From Bittarella massiliensis (ex Durand et al. 2017) (GTDB lineage: Bacteria > Bacillota > Clostridia > Oscillospirales > Ruminococcaceae), in the NCBI RefSeq assembly GCF_001486165.1, contig NZ_LN908977.1, forward strand, positions 443,621 to 507,620: a DNA stretch of 64,000 nucleotides. Direction: 5' to 3'. This document shows positions 6,097-33,941 of this stretch, one piece after another. The notes below the pieces were generated by a model. The model saw only the letters and a program-made list of their open reading frames with translations. It had not been told where the DNA came from and ran no database searches. A program made the translations under genes and the position numbers. How positions within the stretch are numbered: position 1 is the stretch's first letter; each line of letters opens with the position of its first letter.

Positions 6097-6216
6097 TTTT
6101 GCTTTTTCCCCACCAGTCAAAAGAACGAAAATCTATACATTTTATGCTTCTTGCGGAATTGTGGAGGGGCGTTTTCCCTCTCACAAGGCGGCAAGGGGGA
6201 AATGGAGGAGAAAAAG

Positions 6217-9200
6217 ATGCGCAAAATGAGAGGAACCGCATTCCGGCATCGCCTGCTTGCCCTGTCGGTGGCCCTTGCCCTGGGGATGGCGAGCTGGCCT
6301 CTGGGCGTTCAGGCGGCCGGGGTCGGCCTGGGCATGACCGGGTTGCAGGTCACCGGCGGGGTGGAGGGACTCGATTACGAGGTGGATGACGCCGCCGGCA
6401 TGGTGGTTGTCAAGACGGACACCCCCCTGACCATTTCCGGCTCGTCGAGCACCCACGGCGTTCGGGTGGCGCCCGGGGTCCACGCCGACATCACCTTCAG
6501 CGGGGTGACCATCACCGCCCCGCTCCCTTTGGATGTGGCGACCAACCTGTACGGCACGGCCAGCGGGAGCGCAGCCACCGATGGGGCGCAGATACAGAAC
6601 AAGACTTCGCTTCATCTGACGCTGGCGGACGGCAGCGTCAACACCCTGACGGCAGGGGCGCTCTTTCCCGCCGTTCACTGCGGCGAGGGTTCGCTGCTCA
6701 CCATTGACGACGGGGTGCGCAACACAGACAGCCAGGGGAATGCCGTCGTCCCCGAACAGGGCCGGGTGCCCCGGGACTGTGTGCTGGCAAACGGGACCGC
6801 CCTCAAAAAGGGCGACCCTCTCTATTTGATGACAAGTGAAGATCCGGGACGGCTGGTCGCAAACGGCGGCAAGTCCTGTGCGGGCATTGGCGGCGGCATC
6901 TGGGAGAACGCAGGGGAGATGACCTTCAACGGCGGTATCATCGAGGCCTATGCCTACGGGCCGTACAGTGACTACGACGGCACCGGCGCGGGGATCGGCG
7001 GCTCGATGGCGGGCGGCTGTACGGTCATGACCTTCAACGGCGGGACCGTCACCGCCAAGGGCTCTTACCACGGGGCCGGTATCGGCGGCGGGCTGAGTTC
7101 CAGTTGGGGGGCCAACTGGGACAGGCCGCAGATGGCGGGGACCATCAAGTCCCGCGAGACCTATCAAAACACAATCTGCCGGGACATCTATGTCAACGGC
7201 GGCAACATCACGGCCCAGGGGTTTGCCCACGGCAACGCCTTTGGCGCGGGCTGTGCCCCCGGCAGCAATGCCGGCCATAAATTTGTGATCACCGGGGGCA
7301 ATCTGACCCCCATCACCAGTTCCACCAGCGACATCGGCGCGGCGGGGACCGACATTGTCGTCACCGGGGGCTCATTTTACACCAGCAAATTTCAGGGCAC
7401 GGTGACCAACGGCAAGGGCGTCGAGCTGGCCATGGCCACCGTCGACCTGAGCGGCTACCCAGAACTGAAGAACGGCCCCCTCAAGAGCCTGCAGGTGGCG
7501 GTGGACGGGGTGCCTCTCACCCCCGAGTACGGGCTTGCCAACAATGTGGACGGAAACGGCAAGCTCTACTTCTGGCTGCCCAAGAGCGCCCAGGGCAAAT
7601 CTCTGGAAATCAAAAATCTGGTGGCCATCGACCCGGTCACCGGCCAGGAGCAGGAGGGCAAGTACGATTTCACCATCCCCAGCTTTGACAGCGGGCACAC
7701 GGTGGCCAAGCAGTATGTGACCTTCACTGTGGACGAGAGTCTGCTGGGAGAGGCGCTGCGCCAATCGCTGCACAAGCAGTATGACGGGCTGCCGATAGAC
7801 GGACAGGACCTGCTCAACCAGGTGGCGGGCCTGAACATCCCCGCCGACAGACCGGAGGGAGAGTTCCTCAACGACGTTTCGGCCATGAGCCTCTCCCACC
7901 AGCGGGTGGAGGACAAGGCGGGGGAGGAGACCGGCGAACCGGTGAAGACCGGCAGCTTTGAGCGGGCGGGCGGTTACACGGTGATGATCGACTCCAGCCA
8001 GTTCTCGGCTGCACCGGGATTTCAGGAGTCCTTCTGGGGACACCGCGCCGCCTTCGCCGCCGAAATCACCCCGGCCGACAGCACCGCGGAAAAAGTCAGT
8101 TATCAGCTCCAGTGGTCGGGGGACCAATTGCAGGGCGTCGCTTTCCATGCCCTTGTTCGCCCAGCCGACGGAATGGCCGCCACCTGCAAAGCCCCGGACG
8201 GGTCAGTGCAGTTCTACGTCAACGGGGTCGCCGTGGGCGGCCCAGTGACGGTGGCGGCCCAGGCAGGGACGGAGAAGGGATTTGCCTTTGGCACGGCCGA
8301 CTTTGCCTGGGATTTGAGCGGGGTGCAGATCCCCGCCCGACCGGACGGGAAAATCGCCGTCAGCGCCACCTTCGACGGCGGCACCAACTACCGGGTAAGC
8401 AGTTGCCAGGGCTCGCCGGAGGAAAACCCCGGCATCCCGGTGGTGGAGCCGCCCAAGGTGGAGGGAAAGCCCTCCGCACCGGGAGAGCCCGCCCGGGAAT
8501 TGGAGCCGGACGGGGAAATCACCAGTAAGCCCGGGGAGGACCCGGGGGACCCCAACACCCTACACCAGAACTTGAAAGACCGGGTCGCGGTCCCGGTCTC
8601 GGGGGACACTCTTTCGCAGAGTGAGGTGGAGACTTGGATCGAGGGGCGCTATACCGTCGATTCGATGACGCCTGGTGTAAATGCCGCTATCGAGTCGGTG
8701 ACCATCTGGGATGAAAACGGCCAGAAAGTAGAGCAGATCGACCGCACTCGGCCGGGCTCCTACCATGTGATCACAGTCGTGCGCGATGACAGGGGAAATA
8801 GCACCACCGTCGATTTGACCTATCTGGTGACAGACCCGCCGACGGTGGTGGTCAAGCCGGAAAATCCCGAGGAACCGGGGCGGGAGCTCTCCCCCAAAGA
8901 GCCGCCGCAGGGCGACGATGCGACAGGTACCCTGCACGGCCAGTTGGAGGACAGCTATCTGCGCCCAACCGGGTCGGGGACCCTCGGCCGGCCCGAATTG
9001 GCAGACTGGCTTGACGGCCGCTACGACTGGGGGGACGCCCAACTCACCCTGGTGGAGGTCAAAGACAAAGATGGCAACGCAGTGGGAGAAATCGACCTGT
9101 CGCAGCCGGACCGCTACCAGGTGGTGGCGGTGGTGACCGACGATATGGGAAACACCACCACAGTGACCGTCGACTACCAGCTCAAAGAGCCCCCGGCAGT

Positions 9201-9744
9201 TGAGGTGAAGCCCAATCAGCCCGGGGCGGGGGAAGAGGGGACGTTGCGTCCCGACGGGCCGGTGAATACCGACAGAGACGGCACGGTCCACCAAGTGTAT
9301 AAGGACGAGATGTCCACCCCGGCAAAGGACGGCACCCTCACCCAGGCGGACGCCGAGAAGCTAGTGGAGGAGCGCTACACGGTGCCCGCAGGCGCTGCAG
9401 TGCAGACGACCATCCGCGACAGTGAGGGCCAGGCGCTGACGGACATCGATCTGCGCTCTGAAGGGGATTATGTCATTGAGGTGCTGGTGCGCGATGGCGA
9501 GGGGAACACCTCTACGGTCTACCTGGATTACCGGGTGTACGAGGAGCCCGCGCCCCCGGAAGAGGGGGAGAGCGGGGAGAAACCAGAAGGCCCAGAGACC
9601 CCCCAAACCCCGGAGGAAGAGCCGGATGACCGTGGCGAGGAGGGACAACCCCTCACCGGCGATTTCGGTGTGAAGGTGCTTCCGCTTCTGGCCTTGGCCG
9701 GAGCTGGCTTGTTGCTCGGGCGGAAAAGACACGCATCCCGCTGA
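6217..9744 (+). CDS. Giant secreted surface protein with beta-helix-like head and three C-terminal repeats
   Basis: This 1175-residue protein has a Sec signal peptide (basic start, hydrophobic core, cleavage near VQAAG at about residue 34). The N-terminal ~400 residues have Gly-rich turns (GIGGG, FNGG, VNGG) spaced like a parallel beta-helix adhesin. After a mixed middle region come three ~120-residue repeats from about residue 785, each with a short helical stretch ending W/L-x-x-x-RY and an Ig-like strand set ending GNxTTVxLxY. A Pro/Glu-rich spacer, a QPLTG motif (about 1144), a helix and a short basic tail complete it. QPLTG looks like an LPXTG variant, but no sortase is in the window. 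The start at 6217 follows GGAGGAG by six bases. Confidence 0.85.
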   Translation: MRKMRGTAFRHRLLALSVALALGMASWPLGVQAAGVGLGMTGLQVTGGVEGLDYEVDDAAGMVVVKTDTPLTISGSSSTHGVRVAPGVHADITFSGVTITAPLPLDVATNLYGTASGSAATDGAQIQNKTSLHLTLADGSVNTLTAGALFPAVHCGEGSLLTIDDGVRNTDSQGNAVVPEQGRVPRDCVLANGTALKKGDPLYLMTSEDPGRLVANGGKSCAGIGGGIWENAGEMTFNGGIIEAYAYGPYSDYDGTGAGIGGSMAGGCTVMTFNGGTVTAKGSYHGAGIGGGLSSSWGANWDRPQMAGTIKSRETYQNTICRDIYVNGGNITAQGFAHGNAFGAGCAPGSNAGHKFVITGGNLTPITSSTSDIGAAGTDIVVTGGSFYTSKFQGTVTNGKGVELAMATVDLSGYPELKNGPLKSLQVAVDGVPLTPEYGLANNVDGNGKLYFWLPKSAQGKSLEIKNLVAIDPVTGQEQEGKYDFTIPSFDSGHTVAKQYVTFTVDESLLGEALRQSLHKQYDGLPIDGQDLLNQVAGLNIPADRPEGEFLNDVSAMSLSHQRVEDKAGEETGEPVKTGSFERAGGYTVMIDSSQFSAAPGFQESFWGHRAAFAAEITPADSTAEKVSYQLQWSGDQLQGVAFHALVRPADGMAATCKAPDGSVQFYVNGVAVGGPVTVAAQAGTEKGFAFGTADFAWDLSGVQIPARPDGKIAVSATFDGGTNYRVSSCQGSPEENPGIPVVEPPKVEGKPSAPGEPARELEPDGEITSKPGEDPGDPNTLHQNLKDRVAVPVSGDTLSQSEVETWIEGRYTVDSMTPGVNAAIESVTIWDENGQKVEQIDRTRPGSYHVITVVRDDRGNSTTVDLTYLVTDPPTVVVKPENPEEPGRELSPKEPPQGDDATGTLHGQLEDSYLRPTGSGTLGRPELADWLDGRYDWGDAQLTLVEVKDKDGNAVGEIDLSQPDRYQVVAVVTDDMGNTTTVTVDYQLKEPPAVEVKPNQPGAGEEGTLRPDGPVNTDRDGTVHQVYKDEMSTPAKDGTLTQADAEKLVEERYTVPAGAAVQTTIRDSEGQALTDIDLRSEGDYVIEVLVRDGEGNTSTVYLDYRVYEEPAPPEEGESGEKPEGPETPQTPEEEPDDRGEEGQPLTGDFGVKVLPLLALAGAGLLLGRKRHASR

Positions 9745-9828: not shown

Positions 9829-10011
9829 GCGGGGTGCCCTTCATCCTTTTTTGGGGGGGCGAACAACTTGCCCCTCACCTCACTGTCTGTCGACGAGAGC
9901 AGCGGGGTCGCCCGCTTTTCCGCGCCGGACGGGGAGTACCAGCTGGCGGTGTGCGACCTGCTGGGCAACCGCACCAGCGGCCGGTTTTGGGTGCGGGCCC
10001 CGGCGGAGTGA
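9829..10011 (+). pseudogene. Remnant matching the outer domain of the membrane-tethered sigma factor
   Basis: One frame is open from 9829 to a TGA at 10009-10011 but has no start codon or ribosome site. From about 9868 it encodes a C-terminal Ig-like end that matches the end of the sigma factor at 28959-29963: the segment DGEYQLAVCDLLGNR corresponds to DGDYRLAVCDLAGNE, and both continue with a few strand residues and stop. The upstream sequence does not encode the sigma or membrane parts. I read this as the decayed 3' end of a second sigma/sensor gene. Confidence 0.6.
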
Positions 10012-27049: not shown

Positions 27050-28684
<1,635 letters not shown>

Positions 28685-28958: not shown

Positions 28959-29963
28959 TCAGGGAAGGGGGGAAACGGAGAAGGGGAGGACGGCCTCGTT
29001 GCCCGCCAGGTCGCAGACGGCCAGCCGGTAGTCGCCGTCGGGCAACCCGGCGTACACCTCTCCGCTGGCGGGGTCGGTTCCCCCCAGGGGGAGGGGCTGG
29101 CCCTCGCCGTCGGTCAGGCACAAACTCGCCCAGTCCACCCCGCTGCCGTCGTCGCGCAGGGTGAGGCGGGCAAAACTGCCCTCCACCTGTAAGTCGGCAA
29201 AATAGGGGGGCGTCCTGTCCCCGGCCGGGGCGGCCAGCAAAGCCTGTCCGGCCAGCAGCACGAGGGCCCCCGACAGGGCGATGCAGGCAAAGGCCGCCGG
29301 CAGAGATATCCGCCTTTGGGGCGGGTGGGGAAGTCCTGCCCGCCGGGCGCTCTCCTGCGAGGAGTGGGGCAGCGCCCACCGCAGGGCCAGCCCGGCGGGG
29401 ACCAGGGCGAAGCTGTCTTTCAGGTAGAGGCGGAGTTTGGCCTTGGCGCTGGCCAAACTCCGTTTGACGGTGGCCAGGGAACAGCCCAATTCCTGTGCAA
29501 TTTGGCGCAGGGGGGTCTGCTGGCAGTAAAAGCGGATGGTGGCGATCCTCTCCCGCTCGGGCAGCCGCCGCAGGGCCTGTTCCAGGGCGATGGAGGTCTC
29601 CCGCCGGTCCAGCGCCCCCTCGCCGGGGGCGGCGTCGGGATGGGAGGAGAGGGCCCCGCCCTCCACCCGCGGGACCCGCCGCTCCCGGCGGAGGATGGTC
29701 TGGCAGCAGGAGTGAGTGGCCCGGTTGAGGTAGGCCACCACCGCCTGGGGGTCGCGGATGTTGGCAGTATTTTTGTAGAGGGAGGCGTAGCTGTCCTGCA
29801 CCGCGTCGTCGGCCAGATGGGGGTCGCCCAGCAGGGCCAGGGCCTGGTAGTACTGGGCCTCCACCGTGGCGGCGTAGAGCTTGGCAAAGGCCTTCTCATC
29901 CCCCTGTTGGGCCTGTTTCAGCCATCGACCCAGCTGTTTGTGGCTCACCGTCAAATCAAACAC
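28959..29963 (-). CDS. ECF sigma factor fused to a membrane helix and an outward Ig-like domain
   Basis: A 334-residue protein. Residues about 20-93 form sigma-70 region 2 (LADDAVQDSYASLYKN is the typical ECF core) and about 123-180 form region 4 with a clear helix-turn-helix. A basic linker (about 205-218), one membrane helix (about 219-245), and a ~90-residue extracytoplasmic domain ending DYRLAVCDLAGNE follow. No separate anti-sigma gene is adjacent. It is divergent from the giant surface protein 168 bases away, its likely target. A tethered sigma factor would need proteolysis or a conformational signal to act; that is inference. Its outer domain resembles a segment of the surface protein. 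Confidence 0.85.
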   Translation of the reverse strand: MFDLTVSHKQLGRWLKQAQQGDEKAFAKLYAATVEAQYYQALALLGDPHLADDAVQDSYASLYKNTANIRDPQAVVAYLNRATHSCCQTILRRERRVPRVEGGALSSHPDAAPGEGALDRRETSIALEQALRRLPERERIATIRFYCQQTPLRQIAQELGCSLATVKRSLASAKAKLRLYLKDSFALVPAGLALRWALPHSSQESARRAGLPHPPQRRISLPAAFACIALSGALVLLAGQALLAAPAGDRTPPYFADLQVEGSFARLTLRDDGSGVDWASLCLTDGEGQPLPLGGTDPASGEVYAGLPDGDYRLAVCDLAGNEAVLPFSVSPLP

Positions 29964-30131
29964 CCTTTCCTCTGCGCTTTTTCAGCAGACAGTATAGCAC
30001 AGATTCGACCGATTTCACCACAAATTGTGAAAGGAAAAAATTCCTGCATTTTTGTGAGCTCTTTGTCCTCCGACCAACGCCCTATTAATGAATTGCCGTA
30101 GAGGCATAAAATCAACGGAGGAGGAAAAAAC

Positions 30132-33100
30132 ATGAAATTGGCAGAGAGAGAGGGGCGAAACCCCAGGCGGCAGCGGCGAGGGGTGAAGGGCAAGCCTCTG
30201 TGGAGCCGCCTGGGCGCCCTGGCGTTGGCCACCGCCTTTGTGCTGACCTGCATTCCTCCCGTGCAGCGGACCGCCCAGGCATCGGTGGCAACCACCGACT
30301 ACGAAAAGGTGTTCAAGATCCGCAATACCGGCGGCGTGCCCACCTCTTACAACGGAAACGGGAATTTTACCCTTGCCCGCACGGATTCCTCACTATACTG
30401 GCGAAAAAACGCCTACAATGACCCCAATGGAAAGACAAGTGACAGTTTTGGTGGCTTTCAAACCATCAACGCCTTGAGTCTTTACTGCGACTGGACGGTG
30501 ACTGCCACCTTTCGCAGCTCGCCCCCGGTGCAAGACCCCAACAACTACTACACCAACAGCGACTTTGGATTTTCCCTGAATAAAGACCCCGTCCCCTTTG
30601 ACCAAGGTGACTTTTACTGGATGTGGTACAGCAGGGGGCGGGGCGTTTACAGCGCTTCGGGGACGGATGCCACCAACATTGAAAACGGCACCTTTCGCAC
30701 GGCATGGCAGAAAGACAACGCATATCAAACGCCCACCTATACAGGCGGTTTCGTGGGGGCCTACAACAATGCCAGCCACCAGCTGACTCTCTCCTACGAC
30801 TGTCAAAAGGATGAGCTCACCATCAAGCTGGGCAGCGTCACCGGCACCCAGGGATACATTCGGCAGGCGGTCTTTCCGGGGGGAAAGGCCTATCTCTCGG
30901 TGTGGGGACAGATCGAGTGGGATTGGAATGCCCAGGTCCCCAACATGCAGATCGACTGCCACTTCGACAGCTTCGGCTACCCCGATTTTGACCCCGCCAT
31001 CCAGAACATCACCCTGTACAAAGACGGCACCAACCAGGTGGTGGGGGCCAACGACGTGGTCACCCCGGGCACTGTGCTGCGGGTGGAGTCCACGGTGAAA
31101 AACAAGGCGTCCGGCGCGGGCGGCCAGACCTTTGACCTGCACCTCAAGACATCGGACGACACCAAAAACTACCCCACCCAGGGGCTGCAGTTCATTGCCG
31201 ACAACAAACACCCCACCTCGGTGGGTGGGACATCGGTGACCACCTCGAAAAACGGCTACACCATTGATGGGCAGTACGGCATCCCCATCACCATGGTGGG
31301 AAATACCGAATACAAGGTAGTTTACTATGTCAAGGTCACCGAGAGCAGCGGCCAGGCGGTAAAACTGGGACAGATGTTGGAGGACGACGTCCTCGCCAAC
31401 CGCGACTACATCGGCACCACCCTCCTCAACGAGCGGCCCCTGGAGCCGCTGGACCCGGACGACCCCGCCTCGAACACCCAGGTCCCCGGCAGCGACTACC
31501 ACTATACCCGGCTGCCCAAAGCCAACGAAAACGGCTGGAACAAGGACGACGTGACGGTGCAGTTCTTCGCCGGGGACTTCGACCAGTTCACCATCACCCC
31601 CCAGACCGGCTCCGCTGTCACCCTGGCAGACCAGGAGAGCCAGCTCTACGAGCAGGAGCAAATTTACAGCCCCATCACCTACCAGGCCAAAGACACCGGC
31701 ACCGGCGCTGTCTCCACCAAGGTAAATGACCTGGTAAAGGTCGACAAGACCGCCCCCACCCTGTCGTTTGACCAGGACACGGGGGTCCTCACCGCCACAG
31801 ACGGCCTCTCGGGGGTGTGGAGGCTGTACCGAAAGGGGACGGACGGCCAGTTTGCCCCGGTAAAGACCTTCTCCCTGACTGGGGCCACAGGGAACCAGTC
31901 GGGCGCCGGCAGCCAGACCTACACCGCCACCCAAAACGGCATCTACCTGGTGGAAGACGCGGCGGGCAACCGCAGCCAGCCGCTGGCAGTGCAGGTGAGC
32001 GAGCCGCCGGTGGTGGAGCGGCCCGAGGACCCGGACATCCCGCCGGTGGGTCCGCCCCTCGACCCGGACGGGGAGCCGGTGCCGGAGGGGGAGGAGCCCG
32101 CCCTCGACCCGGAGACCGGCCTTCTCCACCGCACCATCGAGGAGACGGTGACCGAGGTCATCTCCGTCGATCCGCCCCTCTATGGCGGCAGCTTTGACCG
32201 CACCGTGGTGGACGGGATATTGGCCTACCGCTACGCCGTGCCCGCCGGCAGCACCGCCCAGGTGGCGGTGAAGGACAAAGAGGGGGCGGACATCACCGCC
32301 CAGGGCCGGTATCTGGACACCACCAAGCCCGGCGGGGTGGACATCTTCTACACCCTCACCGACGGGGACGGCAACACCACCCAAATCATCCTCCACTACC
32401 GGCTGGTCAAGGCCCGGCCGCCCCAAGTGGACCCCGCCGACCCAGACGCGCCCCTGCCCGGACCGGAGGTAGACCCCATCAATCCGGACGACCCCGAGGG
32501 GCCGGTGAAGGCCGTCTACAAGGACAGCCTGACCGAGCTGATCCAGGAGAGCGGTGTCATGGATAAGGCCGCCGCCCAAGCCCTGATGGAGGAGCGCTAC
32601 CACTTCACCTACCCGGACGCGGCCGGCCAGTCGGTGCAGGTGGAGTTGGAGGACAGAAACGGCGCCCCCATCGAGGAGATCGACCTGACCCGGGTGGGGG
32701 ACTACCTGATCCGCTACATAGCCACCGACGCAAACGGGAACCAGACGGCGGTGGAGCTGTCCTACCACCTCATCAGCCGGGTGCCGCCGGTGATCGTCCC
32801 GCCGGAGGACGGGGAACTGGTGGGCCCGACGCCCGCCGACCCGGACGACCCCCTGACCCCCCTGCCGGACGGAGAGGAGCCCGACCCGGAGAAGCCCTCG
32901 GCACTGCTCTACGAGGACGAGTACACCGAGTACATCAAGGACAGTGTGCTGGACCGAGCGGCGGCCCTCTCCTGGATGGAGGAGCGCTACGGCGCCAGCT
33001 CCCCGGTGGGGGCGGCGCTCACGGGGAGCGTCTCCCTCTACGACAGCAAGGGGGACCCGGTGGAGCAGATCGACCAGAGCCGGGTGGGGGACTATCTCCT

Positions 33101-33941
33101 CATCTACACCGTCACCGACCAGGACGGCAACCGGGTCAGCGTCAAGTTGAAGTACCACCTCATCAGCAAGACGCCCCCGGCGGTGGTGCCCAGCGACCCG
33201 GAGCACCCCCTACCCGACCCCATCCCCCTGCCCGACCCGGTGCCCGGCAGCCAGAAGAAGCACTGGAACATCCGTGACCATCTGGAGGAGGAAGTCCGCT
33301 CCGGCAGCTGGAGCAAGGCCGACATCCTGCAGTGGATGGCTCAGCAGTACACCGTTTCCTCCAACCAGGCGGACGGCAGCCTGACATACGACTTGCTGAT
33401 CTTTGACCAAGATGGCCGGCCCGCAGAGGAAATCGACCTGGCCCGCCCCGGCAGCTGCACCTTCTACTATACCGCCACCGACTCGGTGGGCAACACCACC
33501 ACCGTGCAGCTGACCTACAAGCTCACCGACCGCAAAATCACCGGCCCCGTGGGCCCTGCTGACCCCGACGGCGCAGACGGTTCCGGCGGTGTGCCGAACG
33601 GAGGGGGAAATGCCCCCTATACCGGCCTGCTGGGCGGCCGCGGTGTGGGCAATTGCTGGGTGCACTGGCTGGCCCTGTTGCTGATGGCGGCCGTGGCCCT
33701 CTACACTATCCGCCGCCGGCGCCGGACCGGTGCGGATGCCGAAAGGGTGGGGGACGAGCGCCCCGGTCTCCTCGGCAGGGACCTCTTCTTTTACAGTTTG
33801 GTCTCTGCCCTGGCAGCTCTGCTCTACCTGCTGCGGGGCTGTGTCCTCGACGGCATCGCCCTGTTGGCCGTGGCGGCGGCTGTTGTCGCCAGCGCCATTG
33901 CCGTCTCCCGGCGAAAGGCAGAGGGGGAGAGCGAGCACTAG
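30132..33941 (+). CDS. Giant secreted surface protein with lectin-like head, four repeats and a three-helix tail
   Basis: A 1269-residue protein with a long basic N-region and signal helix (about 27-48). The N-terminal ~230 residues resemble an L-type lectin-like beta sandwich (aromatic-rich, DFGFSLN, GDFYWMW), which is inference. An Ig-like module (about 535-632) is related to the outer domain of the divergent sigma factor. Four ~110-residue repeats follow (about 665-1140), each ending in GDY-x-I-x-Y-x-x-TD-x-x-GN. After APYTG (about 1160) come three membrane helices, not the usual single one, with an Arg-rich loop between the first two. CGGAGGAGG precedes the ATG. Confidence 0.88.
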   Translation: MKLAEREGRNPRRQRRGVKGKPLWSRLGALALATAFVLTCIPPVQRTAQASVATTDYEKVFKIRNTGGVPTSYNGNGNFTLARTDSSLYWRKNAYNDPNGKTSDSFGGFQTINALSLYCDWTVTATFRSSPPVQDPNNYYTNSDFGFSLNKDPVPFDQGDFYWMWYSRGRGVYSASGTDATNIENGTFRTAWQKDNAYQTPTYTGGFVGAYNNASHQLTLSYDCQKDELTIKLGSVTGTQGYIRQAVFPGGKAYLSVWGQIEWDWNAQVPNMQIDCHFDSFGYPDFDPAIQNITLYKDGTNQVVGANDVVTPGTVLRVESTVKNKASGAGGQTFDLHLKTSDDTKNYPTQGLQFIADNKHPTSVGGTSVTTSKNGYTIDGQYGIPITMVGNTEYKVVYYVKVTESSGQAVKLGQMLEDDVLANRDYIGTTLLNERPLEPLDPDDPASNTQVPGSDYHYTRLPKANENGWNKDDVTVQFFAGDFDQFTITPQTGSAVTLADQESQLYEQEQIYSPITYQAKDTGTGAVSTKVNDLVKVDKTAPTLSFDQDTGVLTATDGLSGVWRLYRKGTDGQFAPVKTFSLTGATGNQSGAGSQTYTATQNGIYLVEDAAGNRSQPLAVQVSEPPVVERPEDPDIPPVGPPLDPDGEPVPEGEEPALDPETGLLHRTIEETVTEVISVDPPLYGGSFDRTVVDGILAYRYAVPAGSTAQVAVKDKEGADITAQGRYLDTTKPGGVDIFYTLTDGDGNTTQIILHYRLVKARPPQVDPADPDAPLPGPEVDPINPDDPEGPVKAVYKDSLTELIQESGVMDKAAAQALMEERYHFTYPDAAGQSVQVELEDRNGAPIEEIDLTRVGDYLIRYIATDANGNQTAVELSYHLISRVPPVIVPPEDGELVGPTPADPDDPLTPLPDGEEPDPEKPSALLYEDEYTEYIKDSVLDRAAALSWMEERYGASSPVGAALTGSVSLYDSKGDPVEQIDQSRVGDYLLIYTVTDQDGNRVSVKLKYHLISKTPPAVVPSDPEHPLPDPIPLPDPVPGSQKKHWNIRDHLEEEVRSGSWSKADILQWMAQQYTVSSNQADGSLTYDLLIFDQDGRPAEEIDLARPGSCTFYYTATDSVGNTTTVQLTYKLTDRKITGPVGPADPDGADGSGGVPNGGGNAPYTGLLGGRGVGNCWVHWLALLLMAAVALYTIRRRRRTGADAERVGDERPGLLGRDLFFYSLVSALAALLYLLRGCVLDGIALLAVAAAVVASAIAVSRRKAEGESEH

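Follow-up and report, generated by a model that had tools for sequence, protein, structure and literature searches.

We examined a 64,000-nucleotide stretch of the genome of Bittarella massiliensis (ex Durand et al. 2017) (contig NZ_LN908977.1, positions 443,621 to 507,620; hereafter the window, to which positions without a contig or locus name refer) and, within it, a minus-strand gene at 28959-29963. This gene encodes an extracytoplasmic function (ECF) sigma factor that continues, as a single uninterrupted protein from the sigma part through the tail, into a predicted membrane segment and an immunoglobulin (Ig)-like domain. A first-pass annotation, made by a model from the DNA letters, had described sigma regions 2 and 4, one membrane helix and an outward Ig-like domain of about 90 residues in one polypeptide, with a giant surface protein gene divergent at 168 bases and no anti-sigma gene adjacent, and we recovered this arrangement (Table 1). 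On the 5' side the surface gene starts at 30132 and codes for 1269 amino acids (aa); on the 3' side groEL is convergent, therefore nothing lies downstream of the sigma gene in the same direction.

Domain structure of the fused sigma factor

Pfam recognised sigma regions 2 and 4, and the predicted structure agreed: the sigma2 fold matched SigW (VIA Z 14.3; root-mean-square deviation [rmsd] 2.8 over 92 residues) and the sigma4 fold matched region 4 of SigL (VIA Z 10.6; rmsd 1.4 over 71 residues). With regions 2 and 4 only and an ECF fold, the protein has the features of an ECF sigma factor. In the AlphaFold model of the whole protein, sigma2, sigma4 and a seven-stranded tail were confident and residues 98-118 and 185-247 were not, the latter containing the linker and the hydrophobic segment at 219-237. 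This segment is the hydropathy maximum of the protein (2.26) and lies within the stretch of about 219-245 at which a membrane helix had been placed; five lysine or arginine residues (K/R) occur in the 30 residues preceding it and two following it. A shorter hydrophobic segment (residues 184-196) stands directly after sigma4 and is a candidate for an on-board latch. Because AGAGGAAAGG lies 9 nucleotides upstream of the TTG at 29954, we prefer this TTG as the probable start over the GTG at 29963.

The whole-model VIA listing was filled by sigma matches, and the tail (residues 247-334) was therefore folded and searched alone. AlphaFold returned it with a predicted local distance difference test score of 93.5 and a predicted template modelling score of 0.83. 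Its closest folds were mostly Ig-like sandwiches at VIA Z 7-9, including PorU (Z 9.1; rmsd 3.0 over 89 residues), PD-L1 (8.3) and an Ig domain of a titin complex (8.1); Z 8 was reached by only 4 of 998 chains. The predicted Ig-like sandwich is a common arrangement and gives no function. In profile comparisons the tails of the family are similar to domains of SiiE, a giant adhesin (2yn3, 1.1e-9), and also to a collagen adhesion protein (6e-7). Foldseek with the tail alone gave no match below 0.001, its top rows mixing CopC, PKD and Ig domains, and Pfam found no family in the tail. The earlier proposal of a DUF5011 domain was not borne out, although the fold is Ig-like: among the 13 families that Pfam reported for the protein at E<=1, neither DUF5011 nor zf-HC2 appeared.

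Table 1. Features of the fused sigma gene, its divergent partner and the DNA around them (window coordinates).
Feature	Position	Strand	Basis or remark
Sigma gene (ECF type) with predicted membrane segment and Ig-like tail	28959..29963	-	334 codons from GTG
Sigma region 2 (Sigma70_r2), residues 38-96	29676..29852	-	Pfam 1.8e-6
Sigma region 4 (Sigma70_r4_2), residues 126-177	29433..29588	-	Pfam 1.2e-9
Short hydrophobic segment directly after sigma4, residues 184-196	29376..29414	-	family alignment, LPAxxPLGLxL
Predicted membrane helix, core residues 219-237	29253..29309	-	hydropathy; low-confidence region of the model
Ig-like tail, residues 247-334, predicted to lie outside the cell	28962..29225	-	predicted fold
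Divergent intergenic region, 168 bp	29964..30131	.	
Candidate SigA-type extended -10 promoter of the sigma gene, GTGAAA-16-TATACT, TGC before the -10	29991..30018	-	z 3.0 against shuffles
Divergent partner, 1269-aa surface protein	30132..33941	+	
Partner Ig domain, residues 536-617, best match of the sigma-tail profile	31737..31982	+	weak, domain E 0.035
CWVHWLAL motif of the partner, at its C-terminal membrane segment	33654..33677	+	
groEL, convergent 3' neighbour of the sigma gene	27056-28684		

The fused gene is one of a family

The window genome (2.8 Mb) carries eight fused sigma genes, namely the window gene and seven close paralogues. Close relatives among named organisms are Bittarella massiliensis GGCC_0305 (three loci; B. 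massiliensis below, as distinct from the window genome) and Neobittarella massiliensis (four loci), and the Neobittarella genome (G132, with the same places in G412) holds seven genes with an N-terminus and one tail at a contig end. We studied seven Bittarella/Neobittarella loci among 42 related loci found, the other 35 matching at 1e-10 or weaker. The resulting family set comprises 18 genes: eight from the window genome (W and the L038-L044 series), three from B. massiliensis and seven from Neobittarella.

Sixteen of the 18 genes, from three genomes, are open in one frame through the hydrophobic segment; in the remaining two, an adapter-like insertion or a contig end breaks the gene. The paralogue at L043 8599-9826 is broken by such an insertion (MCIRDR/SLIHI peptides in the frames), an assembly artefact. 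In each of the 16 members that could be tested, sigma4 is followed by a hydrophobic segment (Kyte-Doolittle value 1.45-2.37, vs at most 0.90 within the sigma domain), Pfam found sigma2 and sigma4 in each of the seven members of a second alignment, and the LPAxxPLGLxL-type segment recurs across the family when the linkers are aligned. K/R are more numerous before than after the hydrophobic segment in 13/16 members and equal in N156. This distribution leans towards an N-in orientation; the short stretch after sigma4 could complicate the topology. The last 90 residues of orthologous tails are 81-90% identical between species, and six flanking proteins compared between the window genome and B. massiliensis are 89-98% identical.

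Two genome samples were searched for the family, with four candidates scored per genome in both. Among the matches listed for 396 genomes of the bacterial family, full-length profile matches occurred only in the window genome (G000) and G132. For 394 genomes of the order, a threshold of 1e-40 was passed by the window genome and G595, and the G595 match covers the sigma and linker part only. That genome has two tandem sigma genes (G595:C27:12155-15021; L175, L176), with a membrane segment and differing outside domains. Within the window itself, a C-terminal remnant of a sigma Ig tail (9856-10002, plus strand; tblastn 7e-12 with the B57 sigma protein as query) lies directly 3' of a second surface protein gene (6151-9744) on the same strand, and looks like a decayed ninth cassette.

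Each fused sigma gene adjoins a divergent surface gene

Co-occurrence with divergent surface genes, which the first-pass annotation had put forward as a check, held throughout: a surface-type open reading frame (ORF), with a signal-peptide-like start by inspection, diverges from all 18 sigma genes that have an N-terminus. The two genes are 124-280 bp apart in 17/18 cases and 636 bp apart in L041. We regard the anatomy, the family and the gene pairing as near certain. The partner ORFs of B55, N156 and N159 reach contig ends, those of B57 (215 aa) and N158 (498 aa) are short, and that of L042 has 791 aa plus a downstream piece in another frame.

The window partner consists of a signal-peptide-like start, a head of a lectin-like family, Ig-like repeats (Bact_surface_Ig-like in Pfam) and C-terminal membrane segments. 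A profile built from 15 partner heads found nine places in the window genome and six in Neobittarella, 14 of the 15 beside a fused sigma gene; 13 of the 15 are rows of the profile itself, leaving as independent finds only the L043 partner (paired) and the gene at C8:118018 (unpaired). The profile misses the Neobittarella N160 partner. Outside the family it matched staphylococcal Aap chains at 4.1e-4 to 0.001 and chains of Pls and Surface protein G at 0.06-0.11, and Pfam reported Lectin_L-type_dom at E<=1 in 4/15 heads (best 1.7e-4), the window head not among them. The profile match of their heads may relate the partners to Aap-type lectin adhesins, from which they differ in having an Ig-like stalk and a C-terminal CxxHWLAL membrane segment, the staphylococcal stalk architecture used for this contrast being general background.

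Inspection of the partner C-termini revealed a motif, CxxHW[LG]xL, at the membrane segment of 11/18 ORFs (window, L038, L039, L040, L041, L043, L044, L061, L155, L157 and L161), that is, in 11 of the 12 that are apparently full-length, N160 being without it. The broken 3' part of the L042 partner has it as well. By eye, CxxHWLAL is absent from the second surface protein of the window. These small numbers provide a lead that the motif may be associated with sigma pairing. A further motif, [YNLV]TG[EDAL], considered as a candidate LPXTG-type sortase signal, occurs in the last 160 residues of 12/18 partners, including that of N156, which is cut by a contig end. The unpaired gene at C8:118018 follows a sigma gene of the housekeeping type, with Pfam regions 1.1-4, and a dnaG-like gene (by eye); its product has a single C-terminal membrane segment, and CxxHWLAL is absent by eye.

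Housekeeping-type promoter scores are mostly higher on the sigma side

Whole intergenic regions were scored, with L041 left out and with those of L043 and N159 short of about 20 bases at the sigma start. In 13 of 17 regions the sigma side had the higher SigA-like score; the two sides tied in L039, and the sigma side scored lower in L043, in N155 and in B57 (Wilcoxon p 0.0017, or p 0.003 when B. massiliensis is excluded and 14 regions remain). Against dinucleotide shuffles, the sigma side had a mean z of 2.5 and the surface side one of 0.1, and the best SigA-type score of the window region had z 3.0. Most surface genes thus appear to be without a housekeeping-type promoter of the kind seen at the sigma genes, as would be expected if an alternative sigma factor served them. 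On the surface side, a de novo pattern of an AT-tract followed by a TTGTCG-like block reached a log-likelihood ratio of 208, compared to 171-185 in eight shuffle sets (16 regions; L043 and N159 shortened as above). We claim no shared ECF promoter, since two Gibbs searches gave AT-tracts above shuffles on both sides and no fixed spacer.

Search for an anti-sigma factor

Using zf-HC2 and DUF4179 profiles, and otherwise inspection of neighbours by eye, we found no known anti-sigma domain in or beside the fused sigma genes. In the window genome and G132 together, the zf-HC2 profile matched six places and the DUF4179 profile five; none of these 11 lies within 40 kb of a cassette, other anti-sigma families not having been searched, and the nearest is C19:42690 vs a cassette at C19:1 in G132. 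A separate conserved anti-sigma gene, which had been named as an observation that would count against self-contained control, was thus not indicated by these two profiles near the cassettes of either genome. The zinc motif HxxxCxxC is absent from 16/16 testable members, and a zinc-finger anti-sigma module inside the linker was ruled out by this absence together with the lack of zf-HC2 at Pfam E<=1. Nine other sigma-like places exist in the window genome; four were examined, and three of these adjoin an anti-sigma-type gene (two zf-HC2, one DUF4179), the fourth (L171) having none in the gene list. The N155 sigma gene was overlooked by the gene caller behind the neighbour listing and was identified in a separate reading.

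Partner heads vary while the sigma proteins are conserved

Comparison of two orthologous pairs (L044/B61 and L040/B55) revealed that the sigma proteins are 78-100% identical in 40-residue bins, whereas their partners are 20-43% identical over residues of about 61-240, which form a hypervariable head. The first 60 partner residues are 53% and 77% identical in the two pairs; beyond residue 240, identity is 63-97% in the complete pair L044/B61 and 78% over residues 241-300 in the other, where a contig then ends. Similarly, the L043/B57 sigma pieces are 94% (over 118 residues) and 88% identical and their tails 89%, vs 25% over 191 residues for the surface N-terminus, compared with the short 215-aa partner ORF. 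Contig ends fall in or beside cassettes at the C9 start of the window genome and, in Neobittarella, at the C16 end, C18 start, C9 end, C19 start and C5 start. The N156 and N159 partners have one difference in their last 75 residues before the contig ends, a near-identity that would be expected of recombining repeats. We rejected movement of the cassettes as strict units, because the correlation between sigma and surface distances is weak.

The tail profile exceeded the HMMER inclusion threshold in 7/18 partners (E-values apply to the 18-sequence partner set), with the best domain in N157 (residues 487-574, 5.4e-7) and another in N161 (0.0038); the W, N155 and B61 partners match weakly (0.03-0.4) at the equivalent place after the head. 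A like-with-like Ig contact between tail and partner is possible on this evidence. Direct sensing of the head by the tail is unlikely, since the head varies far faster than the tail, and we hold sensing of the partner through the Ig tail to be less likely than not.

A proposed membrane-tethered switch and its alternatives

We propose that the fused protein is a one-component, membrane-tethered, outside-in ECF sigma switch reserved for the adhesin gene that diverges from it, a reading to which we assign a probability of about 0.5; this and the other likelihoods expressed here are judgements. The housekeeping polymerase would transcribe the sigma gene, and the product would be inserted in the membrane so that sigma2-sigma4 face the cytoplasm and the Ig-like tail projects from the cell. 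The tether, perhaps aided by the conserved hydrophobic segment after sigma4, would withhold the sigma domain from RNA polymerase. An envelope signal, for which the condition of the adhesin stalk or the surrounding cell wall is the most plausible candidate, would be read by the tail, and the sigma domain would then be released, most likely by regulated intramembrane proteolysis, and the freed sigma factor would drive transcription of the adjacent adhesin gene. Control of the neighbouring adhesin gene by the sigma factor is likely; release by proteolysis is tentative and to our minds a little short of an even chance. Genes of the M50 protease family are present in the window genome.

Several observations weigh against this reading. 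M50 proteases were found in 14/14 control genomes, so their presence says little. K/R are fewer before than after the hydrophobic segment in L039 and L044. One head-bearing surface gene (C8:118018; L178 2964-6080, minus strand) has no fused sigma neighbour, and in G139, of another genus, a two-Ig tail lies at one contig end and a sigma N-terminus at the end of another contig, the ORF upstream of the latter being one of 197 aa and not a giant surface gene. The spacer of the surface-side two-block pattern varies from 15 to 26, and sigma-side AT-tract patterns exceed shuffles as well (172 vs 152-163). Sigma distances correlate weakly with surface-head distances (Mantel r 0.24, p 0.012, n = 15), and tail with surface distances at r 0.39 (p 0.006, n = 13); L043, N160 and B55 were dropped from these tests and the near-orthologues L044 and B61 were both kept. 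Lastly, 11/18 partners fall below the inclusion threshold with the tail profile.

An alternative to proteolytic release, which we consider unlikely, is that the sigma factor is active while membrane-bound, with the tail shifting its position or oligomeric state and RNA polymerase being recruited to the membrane. CadC and ToxR, membrane-bound one-component regulators, are the model for such a mode. The short tether with its single predicted helix, the lack of a recognisable anti-sigma module and the start of the neighbour gene at 124-280 bp in 17/18 cassettes would all suit it; a sigma factor, however, has to join the holoenzyme and be released, as is general knowledge. Moreover, IutY, a characterised membrane-fused ECF factor, is described as activated by proteolysis (PMC8999054).

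Less probable still is that the segment after sigma4 (LPAxxPLGLxL, or LYSIAPIPF-like in the wider class described below) is a minimal anti-sigma latch that folds back and is unlatched conformationally by the outside domain. A somewhat similar latch has been proposed for the extension of ECF41 (PMC8999054), which is soluble, whereas the latch considered here would act across the membrane. The segment is recurrent within the family and was also seen, by eye, in sigma-membrane-ectodomain proteins from further genera; however, it is only about a dozen residues long, and AlphaFold confidence is low at 185-247, so that no packing on the sigma domain can be read from the model.

We give even lower odds to a sigma factor that is not dedicated, in which the cassette would be a linked unit of surface variation and the sigma factor would govern other genes, or several adhesins in cross-talk. 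The weak co-divergence of sigma and surface proteins, with the nearest sigma and the nearest surface relative often differing, and the loose surface-side pattern point in this direction, but the 18/18 pairing and the missing SigA-type promoter on the surface side of most regions argue for a dedicated factor. Finally, an annotation or assembly artefact, with an ordinary ECF gene running on into unrelated coding sequence, is hardly credible: L043 holds an adapter-like insertion and L042 and N161 stop at contig ends, but the window gene has seven paralogues and ten relatives with the same gene order, 16 of these 18 homologous genes in three genomes stay in frame through the membrane segment and orthologous tails are conserved between species, so that the tail is not the annotation artefact that had been foreseen as a possible refutation.

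Returning to the tethered switch, an extension that we hold to be improbable is a system of surface-coat variation. Each of about eight adhesins with hypervariable, lectin-like heads would have a private tethered sigma factor, which would read the assembly state of the adhesin via contacts between like Ig domains outside the cell and via the CxxHWLAL segment within the membrane; one-protein feedback would pick the adhesin, and heads would be swapped by recombination while the switch stayed fixed.

Sigma factors with other outside domains

Beyond Bittarella and Neobittarella, we observed proteins of other genera in which a sigma factor is joined, through a LYSIAPIPF-like stretch and a linker rich in Ala, Gly and Thr, to a membrane segment and then to large outside domains. 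A membrane segment was present in the script-chosen frame in 24/29 loci (one of the 29 from Neobittarella); these loci are the top matches of the 396-genome search and not a random draw, and the sigma part was checked in part of the frames. Ten wider-class proteins from seven genera were sent to Pfam, which found sigma regions 2 and 4 in 10/10 and, as outside domains, BspA-type leucine-rich repeats (LRRs) in two, a CAP domain in one, DUF2963/RHS-like repeats in one and no known domain in six. L099, L101, L109 and L116 are among the wider-class loci, with LRR_5, CAP and RHS-like among the outside domains. At L166, the gene for a sigma factor with an outside domain of the CAP type precedes a small CAP gene (2.4e-5), and at L167 a neighbour has similar repeats (by eye). 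In the wider class the outside domain may resemble the product of the neighbouring gene.

If the proposed switch is correct, a single polypeptide would control transcription from the outside inwards, and one genome would hold eight such switches, each adjoining a variable surface protein. How such bacteria choose the surface protein that they display would become testable, the tethered sigma parts could be used in synthetic biology, and attention would be drawn to a wider class, sigma factors whose outside domains are of LRR, CAP or RHS-like type.

Comparison with known systems

In the literature searched, we found no description of sigma factors that carry LRR, CAP or RHS-like domains outside the cell, nor of a fused-sigma/adhesin cassette, for which most subscription papers lay outside the search, so that absence is not proven. 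The nearest likeness is to ECF48, ECF52 and ECF53, which also carry sigma2-sigma4, a C-terminal membrane segment and a further domain in one polypeptide; a C-terminal membrane segment was seen in 16/16 members of the present family, by hydropathy only. The ECF52 protein SCO4117 of Streptomyces coelicolor, an Actinobacterium, is described as having a sigma part, a zinc finger, a membrane region, a proline-rich part and a carbohydrate-binding domain (PMC5826349), and activation by release from the membrane has been proposed (PMC5826349, PMC8999054). A 2024 review lists glycosyl hydrolase and carbohydrate-binding domains in some ECF52 and ECF53 proteins as predictions without experimental validation (PMC10766802). 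In contrast to these groups, which have a zinc-finger (ZAS) module between the sigma part and the helix, the fused family has none by Pfam with the window protein, by the HxxxCxxC motif (16/16) or by the genome-wide zf-HC2 search. The outside part of ECF52 is proline-rich and carbohydrate-binding, whereas the window tail has a predicted Ig-like fold, and ECF48/52/53 are all Actinobacterial, whereas the present family is Clostridial and present in many copies per genome, with a gene for a surface protein adjoining each copy.

IutY (ECF243) of Pseudomonas putida resembles the present protein in that the sigma and membrane parts are fused; it is described as a sigma factor fused to a membrane regulator and activated by proteolysis through Prc and RseP (PMC8999054). 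The window protein resembles these systems in the outline of its proposed working. Because the zinc-finger and outside-domain features differ, we do not file it as a member of ECF48/52/53 or of the IutY group. In SigI-RsgI the sigma factor and the membrane regulator are separate proteins, and the sigma factor belongs to another family. It is the nearest parallel for multiple parallel sigma systems, yet it uses two proteins, whereas a single ORF serves here. Clostridium thermocellum is described as having several such systems in parallel, with sensors for different substrates, and RsgI as being cut by RseP within its membrane helix (PMC12203970). The wider sigma-membrane-ectodomain class could, as a guess matched by description alone, correspond to ECF262 (Ruminococcus albus type), an ECF group given as having a regulatory extension of unspecified kind (PMC8999054). 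Membrane-fused ECF sigma factors are thus already known from ECF48/52/53 and IutY, and what is new in the present family is the combination of a linker free of a zinc-finger module, an Ig-like tail and multi-copy pairing with variable adhesins.
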